A program made the translations under genes and the position numbers. The notes beneath the pieces were generated by a model, which was not told where the DNA came from, did not search any database, and saw only the letters and a list, made by a program, of their open reading frames with translations. From a virus: a stretch of 31,575 nucleotides of DNA. Numbering within the stretch: the stretch's first letter is position 1; each line of letters opens with the position of its first letter. The stretch is from positions 1-31,575 of IMG/VR virus record IMGVR_UViG_3300007963_000025. The stretch is one strand, 5' to 3'. Positions 6,009-31,575 of the stretch are shown piece after piece.

Positions 6009-6090
6009 CATTTAATATATGAATTAAAAATTCATTTTCCAATTTTATATACGACTTTTAAAAAAACTCTAAATTCGTGTGATTTACCTA

Positions 6091-6119
6091 TTGACAACAA
6101 GTTCTTTATTAGCGATAAT
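6091..6119 (+). promoter_or_regulatory. Sigma70-type early promoter, internal
   Basis: TTGACA (6091-6096), a 17-nt spacer and GATAAT (6114-6119) form a near-ideal promoter 42 nt before the start codon at 6161. The 17 bases ending in the -35 and ACA (from 6083) are the same as those of the minus-strand promoter at the right end, and both have GC immediately before GATAAT. It should drive 6161-7746. Confidence 0.82.
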
Positions 6120-6160
6120 AGAGTTATCAAACAAATTAGTTTCACGGAAGGAAACACAAA

Positions 6161-8395: not shown

Positions 8396-9100
8396 ATGAC
8401 CACAGATAATACTAACGAAGCTACTCATCACGCGCGCGAAGATTTACGAATCAAGTACGTTGCTACTGATGATTTAATACCGTATATAAACAACTCGCGC
8501 ATTCACAGCGACAAGCAGATATCCCAGATAGCCGCGAGTATAAAAGAGTTTGGTTGGACTAATCCGTTGATAGTCGACGGTGAAAACGGACTAATAGCCG
8601 GTCACGGTAGACAGGAAGCTGCTAAGAAATTGAAGGCTTCTAAAGTTCCGGTCATCGAGCTAAAAGACTTATCAGAATCCCAGAAGAGAGCGTACGTTAT
8701 TGCGGATAACAGATTGACCGAAAACAGCGCTTGGGACGTCGGCTTATTGGACGTTGAGCTGCAAGCTTTGCGTGATAGTAATTTCGATTTGTCGCTAACT
8801 GGTTTTGACGCTCAAAGTCTTGAAGACTTGGGACTAAGTTTTAACGAAGTGGTGGACTTTGAAGAAACTGTATACGGAATGGATAACGCCGAAAATCCTG
8901 CAGAACTGAAGGAAGCTTACGAACAAGGAAGTATTAGGCAGCTTATACTAGTTTTTATGCAGGACGAGTTTAACAGAGTTATTGACGCGATGGGAGAATA
9001 TGCAGAGAAAAACGGACTAGCAAACAATACTGAAGTATTTATACATCTTATGGAGAGCAACGGTTATGCAATCAATACAAGCCAAGAAAAAGAATCTTAA
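8396..9100 (+). CDS. Orphan ParB/Srx-type protein
   Basis: This 234-aa protein has a ParB N-terminal domain at residues about 18-130: YVATDDLIPYINNSRIHS, QISQIAASIKEFGW, the nucleotide-binding GHGR (69-72), then RAYVIADNRLTEN. This version usually forms the front half of phage DNA adenine methyltransferases (ParB-N plus N6-MTase). Here the methyltransferase half is absent and the tail (residues 150-234) is an unrelated acidic helical region. It starts the late block after the repeat array and overlaps the oxygenase gene by 35 nt. It may bind or nick DNA, target the oxygenase, or act at the repeats. The partner role is inference. Confidence 0.8.
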   Translation: MTTDNTNEATHHAREDLRIKYVATDDLIPYINNSRIHSDKQISQIAASIKEFGWTNPLIVDGENGLIAGHGRQEAAKKLKASKVPVIELKDLSESQKRAYVIADNRLTENSAWDVGLLDVELQALRDSNFDLSLTGFDAQSLEDLGLSFNEVVDFEETVYGMDNAENPAELKEAYEQGSIRQLILVFMQDEFNRVIDAMGEYAEKNGLANNTEVFIHLMESNGYAINTSQEKES

Positions 9101-9875
9101 CATCAGCGAGTATCAACATCGCCGAGCTTCCGAAGACGATTTTACAACGTTGATTAAAAAAGACACTACAGTTTATATAGACGGCAGATTAGCAATAGCT
9201 TACTTCGCGCCGGTAAGCGAGCAGCTGACGGAACTACGGCAAGCACTACACGATATTAAATATAGCACGAGTACCAGAACATCTGGACTTAAAACGACTA
9301 GCCGTATATTCGGGTGGTCACCGCGAAACGCAATACGTAATCACCCGTGCAGGTTAGTTTCACTAGCTACCGAGTTCCCGAAAGAACATGCCACGATTGA
9401 ATTAGGCGCAAGAGTAGCGGCTAAATACTACAAGCAAGTTAATCCAGACTTAGCGGGACTACACCAACAGATGACCGACGAAAAACTAAACGGCGACTAC
9501 GTTTTAGCTGACACAATGTTTACTAGCGGGATTGTTAACGAGAATAACCCGCTCAATTATCATTTTGATTCTGGTAACTACAAGGGCGTATACTCTGCAA
9601 TGTTCGGATTTAAACAGGGTATCAGCGGCGGCTACTTAGCAGTCCCCGAGCTTGGATTAGGTTTTGAGATTGGCGACAGAAGCTTGCTACTATTCGACGG
9701 TCAAGGATTATTGCACGGCGTAACACCTATAACAAAACGTTCTGCCAACGCTAAGCGCTACAGCATAGTTTACTACTCGCTGCAGCAGATGTGGAACTGT
9801 GAAGCCGTCGGCGTAGAGCTTGACCGGCTACGAAACAAGCGAACTGAAATAGAACGCAAAAGAGCAGAAACATAA
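9066..9875 (+). CDS. TET/JBP-like 2-oxoglutarate/Fe(II) DNA-base oxygenase
   Basis: This 269-aa protein carries the double-stranded beta-helix motifs of 2OG/Fe(II) oxygenases: the HxD pair in NYHFDSGNYKG (His166, Asp168), the GGYLAVPELGLGFEIGD strand-turn, the distal His in LLHGV (His217), and Arg231 in KRYSIVYYS for 2-oxoglutarate. The N-H-x-D-s-g-N spacing and the GG-L-PELG segment match the TET/JBP group, which oxidises the methyl group of thymine or 5-methylcytosine in DNA. GGAGA lies about 10 nt before the ATG, and the 35-nt overlap ties it to the ParB-like gene. The substrate is unknown: no methyltransferase, kinase or glycosyltransferase is seen in the window. Confidence 0.72.
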   Translation: MQSIQAKKKNLNISEYQHRRASEDDFTTLIKKDTTVYIDGRLAIAYFAPVSEQLTELRQALHDIKYSTSTRTSGLKTTSRIFGWSPRNAIRNHPCRLVSLATEFPKEHATIELGARVAAKYYKQVNPDLAGLHQQMTDEKLNGDYVLADTMFTSGIVNENNPLNYHFDSGNYKGVYSAMFGFKQGISGGYLAVPELGLGFEIGDRSLLLFDGQGLLHGVTPITKRSANAKRYSIVYYSLQQMWNCEAVGVELDRLRNKRTEIERKRAET

Positions 9876-10240
9876 TGCCGACACCATTACACAAACCAAC
9901 AGACCAGAATAGGCGAACCGTTGAAGCGATGAGCGCTTACGGTATACCGCACGAAGAAATTGCAGAAGTTATAGGAATAAGTCGTAAAACACTAACGAAG
10001 CATTATCAACGAGAACTAAACATATCACTAGCAAAAGCTAACGCAAAGATAGCAGAAAAACTATTCGCGAGAGCAGCCGAAGGTGATGTTAAGGCTATGA
10101 TGTTTTGGCTAGAACGGCGTGGCGGTGAAGCTTGGAAGAATAAGCCGGTAGTGACATTCCAACCCGCAGACTTTACAATAGACATAAATCCTACTGATGT
10201 TTTAGAATTACCAATAGATGACGACGAAACAACAACATAG
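9875..10240 (+). CDS. Probable small terminase subunit
   Basis: This 121-aa protein starts at a TAATG overlap. Residues 12-45 form a helix-turn-helix (NRRTVEAMSAYGIPHEEIAEVIGISRKTL, split here by its turn), followed by HYQRELNISLAKANAKIAEKLFARAAEGDVKAMMFWLERR, the oligomerisation region typical of phage small terminases. The tail is acidic (PIDDDETTT). It should recognise the packaging start and load the large subunit, whose gene overlaps it by 23 nt. Position and fold agree. A generic HTH protein is the alternative. Confidence 0.75.
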   Translation: MPTPLHKPTDQNRRTVEAMSAYGIPHEEIAEVIGISRKTLTKHYQRELNISLAKANAKIAEKLFARAAEGDVKAMMFWLERRGGEAWKNKPVVTFQPADFTIDINPTDVLELPIDDDETTT

Positions 10241-11417
10241 AGTTAAGTATACTAGACCGTATATGTATCCGAAGCAAAAAGAAGCGATATTCTGTAAAGA
10301 GCGTTTCAGTATAATCGAAGCTTCAACGAAGTCGGGTAAGACTGTAGGTTGCATGGTATGGCTTGCAGAACAGGCTATAAAGGGCGGAGCGAACAGAAAT
10401 TACTGGTGGATAGCGCCGATATACAGTCAAGCGGAGATAGCATATAGACGACTTAAGGCGGGACTTGGACAAAATAACTACGTAACTAACGCTTCTAACT
10501 TGACCGTAACGCTAGCAAACGGAAGTACAATATGGTTCAAGGGCGGAGATAAACCAGACAGCTTATACGGAGAAGATGTATTCGGAGCAGTAATAGACGA
10601 AGCAACCCGATGTAAAGAAGATGTTTGGCACGCTATAAGGTCTACGATTACCGCTACACAAGCTCCTGTGAGAATCATAGGTAACGTAAAGGGTAGAAAA
10701 AACTGGGCATATCAGCTAGCGCGCAAAGCAGAAGCCGGCGTACCATCATGGCGCTACAGCAGAATCACAGCTGCGGACGCTATCGAAGGAAGCGTACTAA
10801 GCGAATCAGAAGTTCAAGAAGCTAAAAGAGATTTACCGGAGAACGTATTCAGAGAACTATACATGGCAGAACCAAGCAACGACGAAGGCAACCCGTTCGG
10901 AGTAGAAGCGATATATAAATGTGTTGGCAAGCTTAGCGACAAGCCGCCAGTAGTTTGGGGTTGGGACTTAGCGAAGAGTGTAGACTATACGTGGGGAATA
11001 GCTTTAGACGAAGACGGGAATGTTTGCCGTTCCGATAGATTCCAGATGGACTATAAAGATACTCTGCACCGGATAAAAAACCTAACCGGAGGAACACCGG
11101 CGCTTATTGACAGTACCGGAGTAGGCGATGCTATAATAGAATTTTTAGCAGAAGCAGGAAACAATTACGAGGGTTTTAAGTTTACAGCATCAAGTAAGCA
11201 ACAAATCATGGAACGGCTTGCAGTAGTAATTCAACAAAATGAAATTACAGTTCCAGAAGGGTTGCTGGCTAGCGAGTTATTAAGCTTCGAGTACGTATAC
11301 ACTAGAACGGGAGTACAGTACTCAGCGCCGAACGGACTACACGATGACGGAGTATGCGCACTAGCGCTAGCAGTACATCATTCAAACAAAGCACCAAGTA
11401 TTGGAGTATGGCTATAA
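10218..11417 (+). CDS. terL: Large terminase subunit
   Basis: This 399-aa packaging motor has an N-terminal ATPase and a C-terminal RNase H-like nuclease. Walker A is EASTKSGKT (34-42), WWIAPIYSQ marks the adenine/motif region, and Walker B is VFGAVIDEAT (121-130) with Glu128. The nuclease acidic residues are Asp250 (WGWDLAKS), Asp298 (LIDSTG) and Asp376/377 (GLHDDGVCALALA). It drives DNA into the prohead through the portal and cuts concatemers. It follows the probable small terminase and precedes the portal by 1 nt. Confidence 0.95.
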   Translation: MTTKQQHRVKYTRPYMYPKQKEAIFCKERFSIIEASTKSGKTVGCMVWLAEQAIKGGANRNYWWIAPIYSQAEIAYRRLKAGLGQNNYVTNASNLTVTLANGSTIWFKGGDKPDSLYGEDVFGAVIDEATRCKEDVWHAIRSTITATQAPVRIIGNVKGRKNWAYQLARKAEAGVPSWRYSRITAADAIEGSVLSESEVQEAKRDLPENVFRELYMAEPSNDEGNPFGVEAIYKCVGKLSDKPPVVWGWDLAKSVDYTWGIALDEDGNVCRSDRFQMDYKDTLHRIKNLTGGTPALIDSTGVGDAIIEFLAEAGNNYEGFKFTASSKQQIMERLAVVIQQNEITVPEGLLASELLSFEYVYTRTGVQYSAPNGLHDDGVCALALAVHHSNKAPSIGVWL

Positions 11418-11418
11418 A

Positions 11419-13944
11419 ATGGGTATTTTAGATTTTTTTAGAGCGAAGCAAGAGAACAACGAAGCTATAGTTTCGAGTGTTGTTAACAGTACGGATTTAC
11501 AACCAACCTATCCAGACGCTAATTACGCGAGCTTCTCACAAAAAGGCTACGCGGGTAATGAACTAGTTTTCGCTTGTATAAGAGAAATAGCAACATCATC
11601 AGCCGAAGCTATGTTGTGTTTGTATGATGATGAAAAACAAAAAATACAAGCGAATCAGTCGCCGCTAGCCATGTTACTAGAAAAACCTTCAACGCAAGAT
11701 ACACAGTACGAGTTTTTAGAAGCTTTAATCACACACTTACAAATATCGGGTAATGCTTACGTTTTGAAAGAACGTGCTGCTATAGGCGTTGTTTCATTAA
11801 TGCTACTAAGACCGGATAGAGTAGAAGTTCACCCAAGCCGCGACGCATATACTTACGAAGTTAACGGATTGAAATATGTAATACCCGCCGAAGATATAGG
11901 ACATCTTAAATTTCCTAATCCTAACAACGATTTCTACGGACTATCACCGCTACAAGTTTTATTAAAGCAAGTTCAAATTGATACCGACGCCACTAACTTC
12001 ACTAGAGCATTTTTTAACAATGCAGGAGTACCTAGCGGAATATTGAAATTAAAAAGACGCATGAGCAGCCAAGAAGAAGCTGACCGACTACGTACTCAAT
12101 GGCGCGGTCAATTTAGAGGTGACAGAAATTGGCATAGAATCGCGATTTTAGATGAGGACGCAAGCTACGAAACTATGGGAAGTTCAATAGGACAAATGGA
12201 GATACCGGCACTAAGGCAACTATCAGAATCAAGAATATGTGCAGCTTTCGGAGTACCTGCGATATTGGTTGGAGCGAACGTAGGACTTCAAAGAAGCACT
12301 TACAGCAACTACAGGGAAGCTAGGGAGAGTTTCTGGGAGGAAACTTTATTGCCACTATACAAACGTATTGAGCAGTTTATGATAGGATTGCTTGAACCAG
12401 AATTTCCTAACGAGAACGGGTACGTAGCGTTTGACTTTGCGCAAGTACGAGCGTTACAAGAAGACGAAGACGCGATAGTACAAAGAAAACTTACGCAAGC
12501 ACAAATAGCTAAAGAGCTTATAAACGCAGGTTTTACGCCACAATCAGCACTACAAACAGCCGGCTTAAACGAAGAAATGGAGCATACGGGATATTTACCG
12601 TCTAGTTTAACCGTACTAGGAAGAGGACAAAGCGAAATAAAAGATTCAACGAAAGCTTTATCACAGGGACGCGCTAACACTTTACTAGAGCCGTTACAAC
12701 AAGACTACGAAGAAGAAGTAGAGAATATGGAAAAGGTTCTTGAAAAATATTTCAGACAACAGCAAAACCGAGCTGACGGAATCATAGGAAGATATTTACA
12801 ACAAGAAAAACCAGAAGACAAAACCATTGAAGTCAAGATTGAAGTTCCCGCATTCATTGCAGAGAACGCCGCAAAGGGACTTGTTTACGTCAGAGAGGGA
12901 CGCGGCGGTGACGGACTAACCGACAAGACTAAACGGGAAGCGCGTGCGCTCTCCGGGGGTTTTGCAAGCGAAAGCAAAGTTAGGAGAATGTCTGCTTGGT
13001 TCGCGCGGCACGTTTCAGATTTAGATTCACCGGCTAATAGTGACAGGAGTAATGAAGACTTTCCGCAAGCCGGAGCAGTAGCATGGTACTTATGGGGTGG
13101 TAATCCTACTACTAATCCTATGCGGGCGAAAGAGTGGGCAGATAGGCAAGTAGCGCAGTTTGAAGAAAACAGCAAAGCACCAGTAGCAGGAGCAGATAGA
13201 TTTACTACGCAAGAAGAAGCAGCTGCAAGAGCAGCTGAAATAGGTTGCGAGGGTACGCACAGCATGGACGAAGACGGAAACACGATATATATGCCATGTA
13301 GTACTCACGCTGATTATGACAGCGCCGTAGGCAATACAACACCTACGACTTACGGTGAGAAAACCAAACAACAGCTGCCATTCAATGAAGTTTCTTTAAT
13401 ACCGTTAGCAGATGATGTTTTACTGAATCAAACAATGCTTCCTACACAATTAAGAGCGATGGAAAAAGCTTGGAATACAGTTAACGCCGGCGGTCTTTTT
13501 GTTAGCACACCGTTTGACGCAGAGCTGCCAATAGTACAAAATGCTTTACGGGGTAGTGGAAAGTTAATCAATGACGCGAGTAGAAGAAAAGTAGCAAAAG
13601 TACTTGAAACTGGCACGGCTAGGGGTTACAGTTTAGACCAGATAGTACGCGGAGTAGAAAAAGATAATTTTGTGGGATTAAGAAGCGTAGTAAGAGAAAC
13701 TTACAAAAACAGAGCGAAGGCGATAGCGAGAACCGAAGTAGGGAAAGCACAAAACGCTTCTACAGTAGCTCGGTATCAAGCTGCCGGAGTAACCAGAGTA
13801 ATCGTACGGGACGGTGACGAAGACAACCTGTGCGCGCCATTCGCAGATACAATACAAACTATGGATTGGGCGTTACAAAATCCAAGCGCACATCCAAATT
13901 GCACTAGAGCTTTCGCAGCTGTAGTAGAAGGAATAGATTACTAG
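11419..13944 (+). CDS. Portal-MuF fusion protein
   Basis: ATG 11419 is preferred to a TTG at 11401, giving 841 aa. Residues about 1-400 are an HK97-type portal (GYAGNELVFACIREIA, LLRPDRVEVHPS, FPNPNNDFYGLSPLQ, FNNAGVPSGIL). Residues about 468-570 hold an extra domain with a RH..D..SP and AWYLWGG...WADRQ pattern that I know from other environmental phage head proteins. The C-terminal ~150 residues are a MuF minor-head domain (RAKAIARTEVGKAQNAS, GDEDNLCAPFADT, HPNCTRAFA). Portal and minor head protein are normally separate genes, and here they make one chain. It forms the dodecameric DNA gate and probably part of the injected or internal head content. Confidence 0.88.
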   Translation: MGILDFFRAKQENNEAIVSSVVNSTDLQPTYPDANYASFSQKGYAGNELVFACIREIATSSAEAMLCLYDDEKQKIQANQSPLAMLLEKPSTQDTQYEFLEALITHLQISGNAYVLKERAAIGVVSLMLLRPDRVEVHPSRDAYTYEVNGLKYVIPAEDIGHLKFPNPNNDFYGLSPLQVLLKQVQIDTDATNFTRAFFNNAGVPSGILKLKRRMSSQEEADRLRTQWRGQFRGDRNWHRIAILDEDASYETMGSSIGQMEIPALRQLSESRICAAFGVPAILVGANVGLQRSTYSNYREARESFWEETLLPLYKRIEQFMIGLLEPEFPNENGYVAFDFAQVRALQEDEDAIVQRKLTQAQIAKELINAGFTPQSALQTAGLNEEMEHTGYLPSSLTVLGRGQSEIKDSTKALSQGRANTLLEPLQQDYEEEVENMEKVLEKYFRQQQNRADGIIGRYLQQEKPEDKTIEVKIEVPAFIAENAAKGLVYVREGRGGDGLTDKTKREARALSGGFASESKVRRMSAWFARHVSDLDSPANSDRSNEDFPQAGAVAWYLWGGNPTTNPMRAKEWADRQVAQFEENSKAPVAGADRFTTQEEAAARAAEIGCEGTHSMDEDGNTIYMPCSTHADYDSAVGNTTPTTYGEKTKQQLPFNEVSLIPLADDVLLNQTMLPTQLRAMEKAWNTVNAGGLFVSTPFDAELPIVQNALRGSGKLINDASRRKVAKVLETGTARGYSLDQIVRGVEKDNFVGLRSVVRETYKNRAKAIARTEVGKAQNASTVARYQAAGVTRVIVRDGDEDNLCAPFADTIQTMDWALQNPSAHPNCTRAFAAVVEGIDY

Positions 13945-31494: not shown

Positions 31495-31538
31495 TTGTGT
31501 TTCTCCTTTTTTTAGAAACTATTTTGTTTGTTAATATA

Positions 31539-31567
31539 ATTATCGCGAATATATTACCTGTTGTCAA
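31539..31567 (-). promoter_or_regulatory. Sigma70-type promoter, right end, leftward
   Basis: On the minus strand TTGACA (31562-31567) is separated by exactly 17 nt from GATAAT (31539-31544). It lies about 45 nt before the ATG of the 137-aa gene. Together with the bases upstream it repeats the sequence at 6083-6099 without mismatch for 17 bases. Confidence 0.82.
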
Positions 31568-31575
31568 TAGGTAAA

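Follow-up and report, generated by a model that had tools for sequence, protein, structure and literature searches.

A conserved ParB–TET gene pair before the terminase genes of phages: candidate core of a thymine-hydroxylation module

What do two overlapping genes, coding for a ParB-like protein and a TET/JBP-like oxygenase and placed directly before the terminase genes, do to the DNA of a phage, and do they do it by themselves? The question is raised by a virus of bacteria (IMG/VR IMGVR_UViG_3300007963_000025), the whole record of which, 31,575 bases, is called the window below. The original prediction saw in the pair a compact system in which the host, or thymine itself, supplies the substrate. 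Our best explanation, to which we give a probability of about 0.7, is that the pair forms the core of a post-replicative, ParB-assisted module for the hydroxylation of thymine in phage DNA. The two reading frames, of 234 and 269 aa with an overlap of 35 nt, came out of the ORF check as predicted, and so did their place: the stop of the TET gene touches the ATG of the small terminase-like gene (TAATG, 9873–9877), with the large terminase, portal, and capsid genes following. The features are:

8396..9100, + strand: ParB-like protein, 234 aa, with a ParB/Srx N-domain and a C-terminal ribbon-helix-helix-like domain (phrog_620, 7e-53; PDB ParB/Noc profile matches; VIA)
8444..8725, + strand: ParB N-domain, residues 17–110, with a GHGR motif at residues 69–72 (range of the VIA alignment; family alignment)
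8927..9076, + strand: C-terminal beta-alpha-alpha domain, residues 178–227, likely ribbon-helix-helix (alignment, profile and structural matches)
9066..9100, + strand: overlap of the ParB and TET reading frames, 35 nt (ORFs; overlap kept in relatives)
9066..9875, + strand: TET/JBP-family Fe(II)/2-oxoglutarate DNA oxygenase, 269 aa, predicted thymine hydroxylase (PF12851, 6e-13; model; Z 17–20 to TET2, NgTet1, CMD1, CcTet)
9561..9569, + strand: HxD motif of the metal site, H166-F-D168 (sequence; alignment of relatives)
9714..9716, + strand: distal metal-binding His, H217 (sequence; alignment of relatives)
9756..9758, + strand: 2-oxoglutarate-binding Arg, R231 (sequence; alignment of relatives)
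9875..10240, + strand: small terminase-like (TerS-like) HTH protein, immediately after TET (phrog_309, 7e-16)
10218..11417, + strand: large terminase, TerL (phrog_2, 1e-35; Terminase_6N)

The oxygenase and its ParB-like partner

The 269-aa protein matches the Pfam profile Tet_JBP (PF12851) with an E-value of 6e-13 and 48.7 bits (cut-off 34.9). The HxD motif, distal His, and Arg named in the original prediction are conserved: among 44 aligned relatives, H166, D168, and R231 are invariant, as is N171, and H217 is nearly invariant. In the structure model (mean pLDDT 93), the best 16 VIA structural matches are all to TET2, NgTet1 (Naegleria Tet1), CMD1, or CcTet (Z 17.0–20.1). The next family is FTO (Z 15.0), with AlkB-type proteins below. 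Profile search and structure prediction, the checks proposed for the assignment, both place the protein in the TET/JBP family, and a non-DNA 2OG oxygenase family is ruled out by the same Pfam profile and fold. Judged by profile and modeled fold, the protein is a true TET/JBP-family DNA oxygenase.

Phage TET genes carry other names in GenBank: queuine tRNA-ribosyltransferase, DpdA-like, SNF2 DNA repair, or DnaJ; PHROG 6059 has the queuine name. These are apparent misannotations. A tRNA-guanine transglycosylase, the name used in many GenBank records and for PHROG 6059, was rejected for the window since the profile makes the protein a Tet_JBP oxygenase.

The 234-aa protein matches PHROG ParB families (up to 7e-53, with phrog_620), and its score with Pfam ParB_N (PF02195) lies just below the cut-off (24.3 vs. 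26.3). With VIA, about 92 residues of the N-domain align to Noc/ParB (Z about 13). The N-domain fold and the GxxR-type motif (here GHGR) assign the protein, by alignment and model, to the ParB/Srx superfamily. It departs from the canonical partition protein. Most of the top VIA matches end at residues 108–112 (a few reach 152), and the canonical partition model TIGR00180, with 32.5 bits, stays far below its cut-off of 58.45, its matched region stopping at residue 110; the parS-binding HTH is therefore apparently absent. There is no ParA partner among the window proteins scanned. Thus, of full domain order, parS-binding HTH, and ParA, which together characterize a canonical ParB partition protein, none is found here.

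At the other end, the 50 C-terminal residues show a beta-alpha-alpha pattern that the alignment keeps across most of the ParB-like family. The best match in a profile search of the PDB is Arc (pArc), a weak one (E 0.075); Pfam Arc weakly matches one of 21 family members (E 0.087), and VIA returns NikR, Arc, MazE-mt1, and MatP over 42–51 residues at Z 3.2–3.8, that is, below 4. The C-terminal domain is, on alignment and modeled structure, likely a ribbon-helix-helix. The original prediction regarded the protein as an orphan, with its methyltransferase half gone. This does not hold, because stand-alone ParB-like proteins of phages share the C-terminal part as a conserved domain. The near-full-length match to stand-alone ParB-like families, together with that conserved domain, indicates that the protein is complete and of the stand-alone type, and not a fusion minus its methyltransferase. 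In other phages, related ParB domains lie within features that the records label adenine, cytosine-5, or other types of DNA methylase, in keeping with a general role of such domains beside DNA-modifying enzymes.

A constant pair beside an exchangeable slot

An IMG/VR scan with the oxygenase alignment gave 370 relatives, and the best 80 of these 370 were kept; three loci from bacterial genomes, those of four named phages, and that of the window brought the set examined to 88. In 81 of them, no more than about 2 kb separates TET from a ParB gene upstream; the remaining seven start at or near a contig end. Where both genes are present in IMG/VR loci (66, window included), they overlap in 55, mostly by 14–44 nt, so the overlap is not due to chance. 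TerL follows within 8 kb downstream in 74 of 81 loci (median distance 1.1 kb). The pair is also present in named phages of Mycobacterium, Gordonia, Rhodococcus, Microbacterium, Arthrobacter, and Pelagibacter. In Margaery, a second ParB-like gene (gene 97, L102:46239-46931) is found at the far right genome end, besides gene 1.

The TerLs of these loci fall into six clusters, only two of which are joined to each other by BLAST. ParB and TET distances are rank-correlated (0.58 over 44 loci), and within one TerL cluster the TET–ParB correlation is 0.75 vs. 0.18 for TET–TerL; in a smaller cluster (n = 8) this difference is lost, the congruence between ParB and TET being no higher than that of the two with TerL. 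Since the distances covary and the TerLs belong to separate clusters, ParB and TET behave as one unit that joins different packaging modules. The predicted action of the oxygenase with a ParB-like DNA-binding partner gains support from this pairing and co-inheritance as far as partnership goes; that the ParB-like protein would act as the guide is suggested by the same data. It could instead be regulatory or nucleolytic. ParB-fold proteins elsewhere have regulatory and DNase roles, and gene pairing is what ties this one to the oxygenase, so it might be an independent late regulator, an NTPase, or a nuclease merely cotranscribed with TET. We hold this to be rather unlikely in view of the overlap, of the joint inheritance with TET beside packaging modules that are not related, and of the related ParB domains in proteins annotated as DNA methyltransferases.

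In most relatives, one or two extra enzymes adjoin TET, usually downstream, between TET and the terminase gene. Among the best 80 of the 370 relatives, the gene in this slot is an FkbM-type methyltransferase in 24 loci (among L012–L073), a TET-associated glycosyltransferase (TAGT) in about 20, and a GT-B-like protein, named by eye without a Pfam match, in 11. A Ploopntkinase3-type P-loop kinase and the amino acid:DNA transferase ADDT (PF18724) occur as well. Mapped on the TET tree, the slot content requires at least 29 changes, where the least possible number is seven. Close TETs can have unlike slot genes (TAGT in L010 vs. GT-B in L016; TAGT in L051 vs. FkbM in L052). The nearest relative of the window TET among the best 80 of 370 (L009, 64% identity) has its TET followed immediately by ADDT and a Ploopntkinase3-type gene, and ADDT or the kinase is found also in Prince, CaiB, and Margaery. 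ParB–TET is thus a constant core beside an exchangeable slot for decorating enzymes. In the window the slot is empty, with no gene between TET and the small terminase-like gene. An FkbM slot gene also occurs in the complete Pelagibacter phage HTVC112P (L109:8497-9195); such an enzyme could place an O-methyl group on 5hmU or on a sugar attached to it.

Thymine as the probable substrate, and the undetected decorator

The mechanism we propose is as follows. With Fe(II), 2-oxoglutarate, and O2, the TET-type enzyme would hydroxylate thymine in DNA at its methyl group, so that a hydroxymethyl group results (5hmU), and the ParB-like protein would bind the DNA and hold or guide the oxygenase there. 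In relatives, 5hmU would then be decorated by what the adjacent slot encodes: a glycosyltransferase of the TAGT or GT-B kind, an FkbM-type methyltransferase, or a kinase together with an amino acid:DNA transferase. As the slot of the window is empty, the product there would be either plain 5hmU or 5hmU decorated through an enzyme that the record lacks or that cannot be recognized in it. The benefit is likely protection against host nucleases.

Two substrates come into question, thymine and 5-methylcytosine. The active-site residues are uninformative for this choice: N171 occupies a position where TET2 too has Asn. The gene content is more telling. The C5-cytosine methyltransferase profile PF00145 has no match in any of 28 viral records (the window and 27 others) nor in any of seven complete genomes of cultured phages that have the pair, and it did match the control genomes. 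The kinase and ADDT families are established members of thymidine hypermodification pathways, and TAGT enzymes are named from 5mC-type pathways. The lack of any C5-methyltransferase match, the kinase and ADDT partners in relatives, and the fact that thymine needs no methyltransferase make thymine very probably the substrate. The enzyme might oxidize 5-methylcytosine supplied by a methyltransferase of the host or by one of the phage that escaped detection, after the manner of the published TET phages that hypermodify cytosine, the fold family of which it shares; some relatives do carry TAGT-type glycosyltransferases, and the record may lack genes, a methyltransferase among them. The absence of PF00145 from all 28 records and seven genomes, and the 5hmU-type kinase and ADDT in close relatives, make 5mC a highly improbable substrate.

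Is the thymine-hydroxylation module of the window complete with two genes? Profiles of five decorator families, curated and home-made, detect no decorator gene in its 31.6 kb, and no C5 or N6/N4 methyltransferase is detected there either; in this respect, the window is as originally described, without a base methyltransferase or other modifying enzyme recognized by profiles. A true two-gene system would convert chosen thymines of newly made DNA, under ParB guidance and before packaging, into plain 5hmU without methyltransferase or decorator. The empty slot, in which the stop codon of TET adjoins the start codon of the small terminase gene, and the lack of a detected decorator agree with it. 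On the other hand, the pair by itself was not found in any complete genome. Margaery is no such case, its gene 3 being a kinase, and the L011 record has a GT-A-like ORF, although a weak one. The empty slot of the L020 clade is no proof of a minimal system either, since a decorator lies away from the pair in these records: a kinase at G003:8172-8669 (L020 record, about 12 kb away) and a TAGT at G004:7988-8692 (L025 record). A two-gene system is therefore unlikely.

The usual full hypermodification pathway, with the decorator in a missing part of the genome or in an unrecognized gene, is compatible with the thymine-hydroxylation core and has, in our estimate, slightly better than even odds. By tally of the profile results, one or more decorator families are present in 22 of the 24 records that are 25 kb or longer, and the empty-slot records keep a kinase, a TAGT, or the weak GT-A-like ORF outside the slot. 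The window record has no end repeats, and no endolysin was recognized among the proteins scanned; it may be a fragment or incomplete. Against a full pathway stand the negative profiles across the 31.6 kb and the size of the complete ParB–TET phage genome HTVC112P, only 32.5 kb, so that little may be missing from the window. Given the 22 of 24 records and the decorators found elsewhere in empty-slot relatives, a decorator past the contig ends or in an unrecognized gene is likelier than a two-gene system. Since no decorator is seen and the record may be incomplete, the window is filed as a ParB–TET (hydroxylation) module and not as a full hypermodification system. Of the compact system first proposed, the part on thymine as substrate is favored by gene content; completeness with two genes is disfavored by those empty-slot relatives.

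Known systems and the surroundings of the pair

Parts of this arrangement are already on record. A note on Gordonia phage CaiB calls genes 1–5 before the terminase, a ParB-like, a TET/JBP, a pyrophosphorylase, and a kinase gene among them, nucleotide modification genes (PMC9302106), and a note on Rhodococcus phage Tonitrus calls its gene set a thymidine hypermodification system (PMC11955845). In GenBank, one relative is already named thymidine hydroxylase. The pair is, accordingly, a further case of a known and widespread phage system, and the novelty implied at first becomes smaller: ParB–TET before the terminase is widespread and has entered both annotations and genome notes; the unusual point of the window is that none of the usual decorators is visible in it. 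For the swappable slot, the FkbM variant, and the ribbon-helix-helix-like ParB tail, no paper was found in a search that covered few subscription journals, and no priority is claimed.

The left-end clusters of actinophages (CaiB of Gordonia cluster DR; Acadian, Nigel, and Prince of Mycobacterium cluster B; Rhodococcus Tonitrus; Microbacterium Margaery) have the same ParB-like, TET/JBP, and terminase genes as the window and, in the genomes tested, likewise no C5-methyltransferase. They differ by a kinase, ADDT/pyrophosphorylase, or glycosyltransferase, none of which is seen in the window, and their TETs are about 30%–35% identical to that of the window. HTVC112P is close to the window in genome size and in its overlapping ParB–TET genes before the packaging genes, but there an FkbM methyltransferase and then other small genes come between TET and terminase.

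In thymidine hypermodification pathways, 5hmU enters DNA as a nucleotide and is acted upon by a 5hmU-DNA kinase and an amino acid:DNA transferase. The same Pfam families (PF18751 and PF18724) adjoin TET in relatives of the window; the window TET would, in contrast, make 5hmU in DNA, and no downstream enzyme is present in the window. Kinetoplastid JBP1/JBP2 (base J) share with the window TET the TET/JBP family and the predicted hydroxylation of thymine in DNA, but the partner here is a separate ParB-like protein instead of a J-binding domain, and no glucosyltransferase is seen in the window. The phage TET systems of cytosine hypermodification (Burke et al. 2021) have, according to a passage in PMC12730594, a C5-methyltransferase. 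They have in common with the present group the TET/JBP oxygenase and TET-associated glycosyltransferases; they differ in that no C5-methyltransferase is found here and that the ParB partner is typical of the group of the window.

With 370 TET relatives in one IMG/VR scan, this phage family is large, and ParB–TET is what stays constant in it. Because decorators swap freely between closely related oxygenases, the pair can be regarded as a platform that allows a clean test of site choice by a ParB fold. If ParB does choose the sites, this would explain why ParB domains accompany so many phage DNA-modifying enzymes and would offer a tool for marking thymine at chosen positions. What is claimed for the window is modest, namely that it adds a further and apparently minimal member.

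Some further observations concern the surroundings of the pair. The portal protein (847 aa, 11401–13944) also holds DUF3721 and a weak Mu-F-like region. Between 7980 and 8110, within a noncoding stretch of 650 nt before ParB, lies an array of direct and palindromic repeats of the AGTTACTTAAG type; the window has ten matches to this repeat vs. 2.4 expected, eight of the ten inside the array. The array is possibly an origin or a regulatory site. A role as a conserved ParB binding site is not supported, since no comparable array was seen upstream of ParB in relatives, where ParB usually stands directly behind another gene. Finally, an inverted repeat of 61 nt (82% complementary) links positions 6083–6143 and 31515–31575, and the second arm is exactly the final 61 nt of the record.
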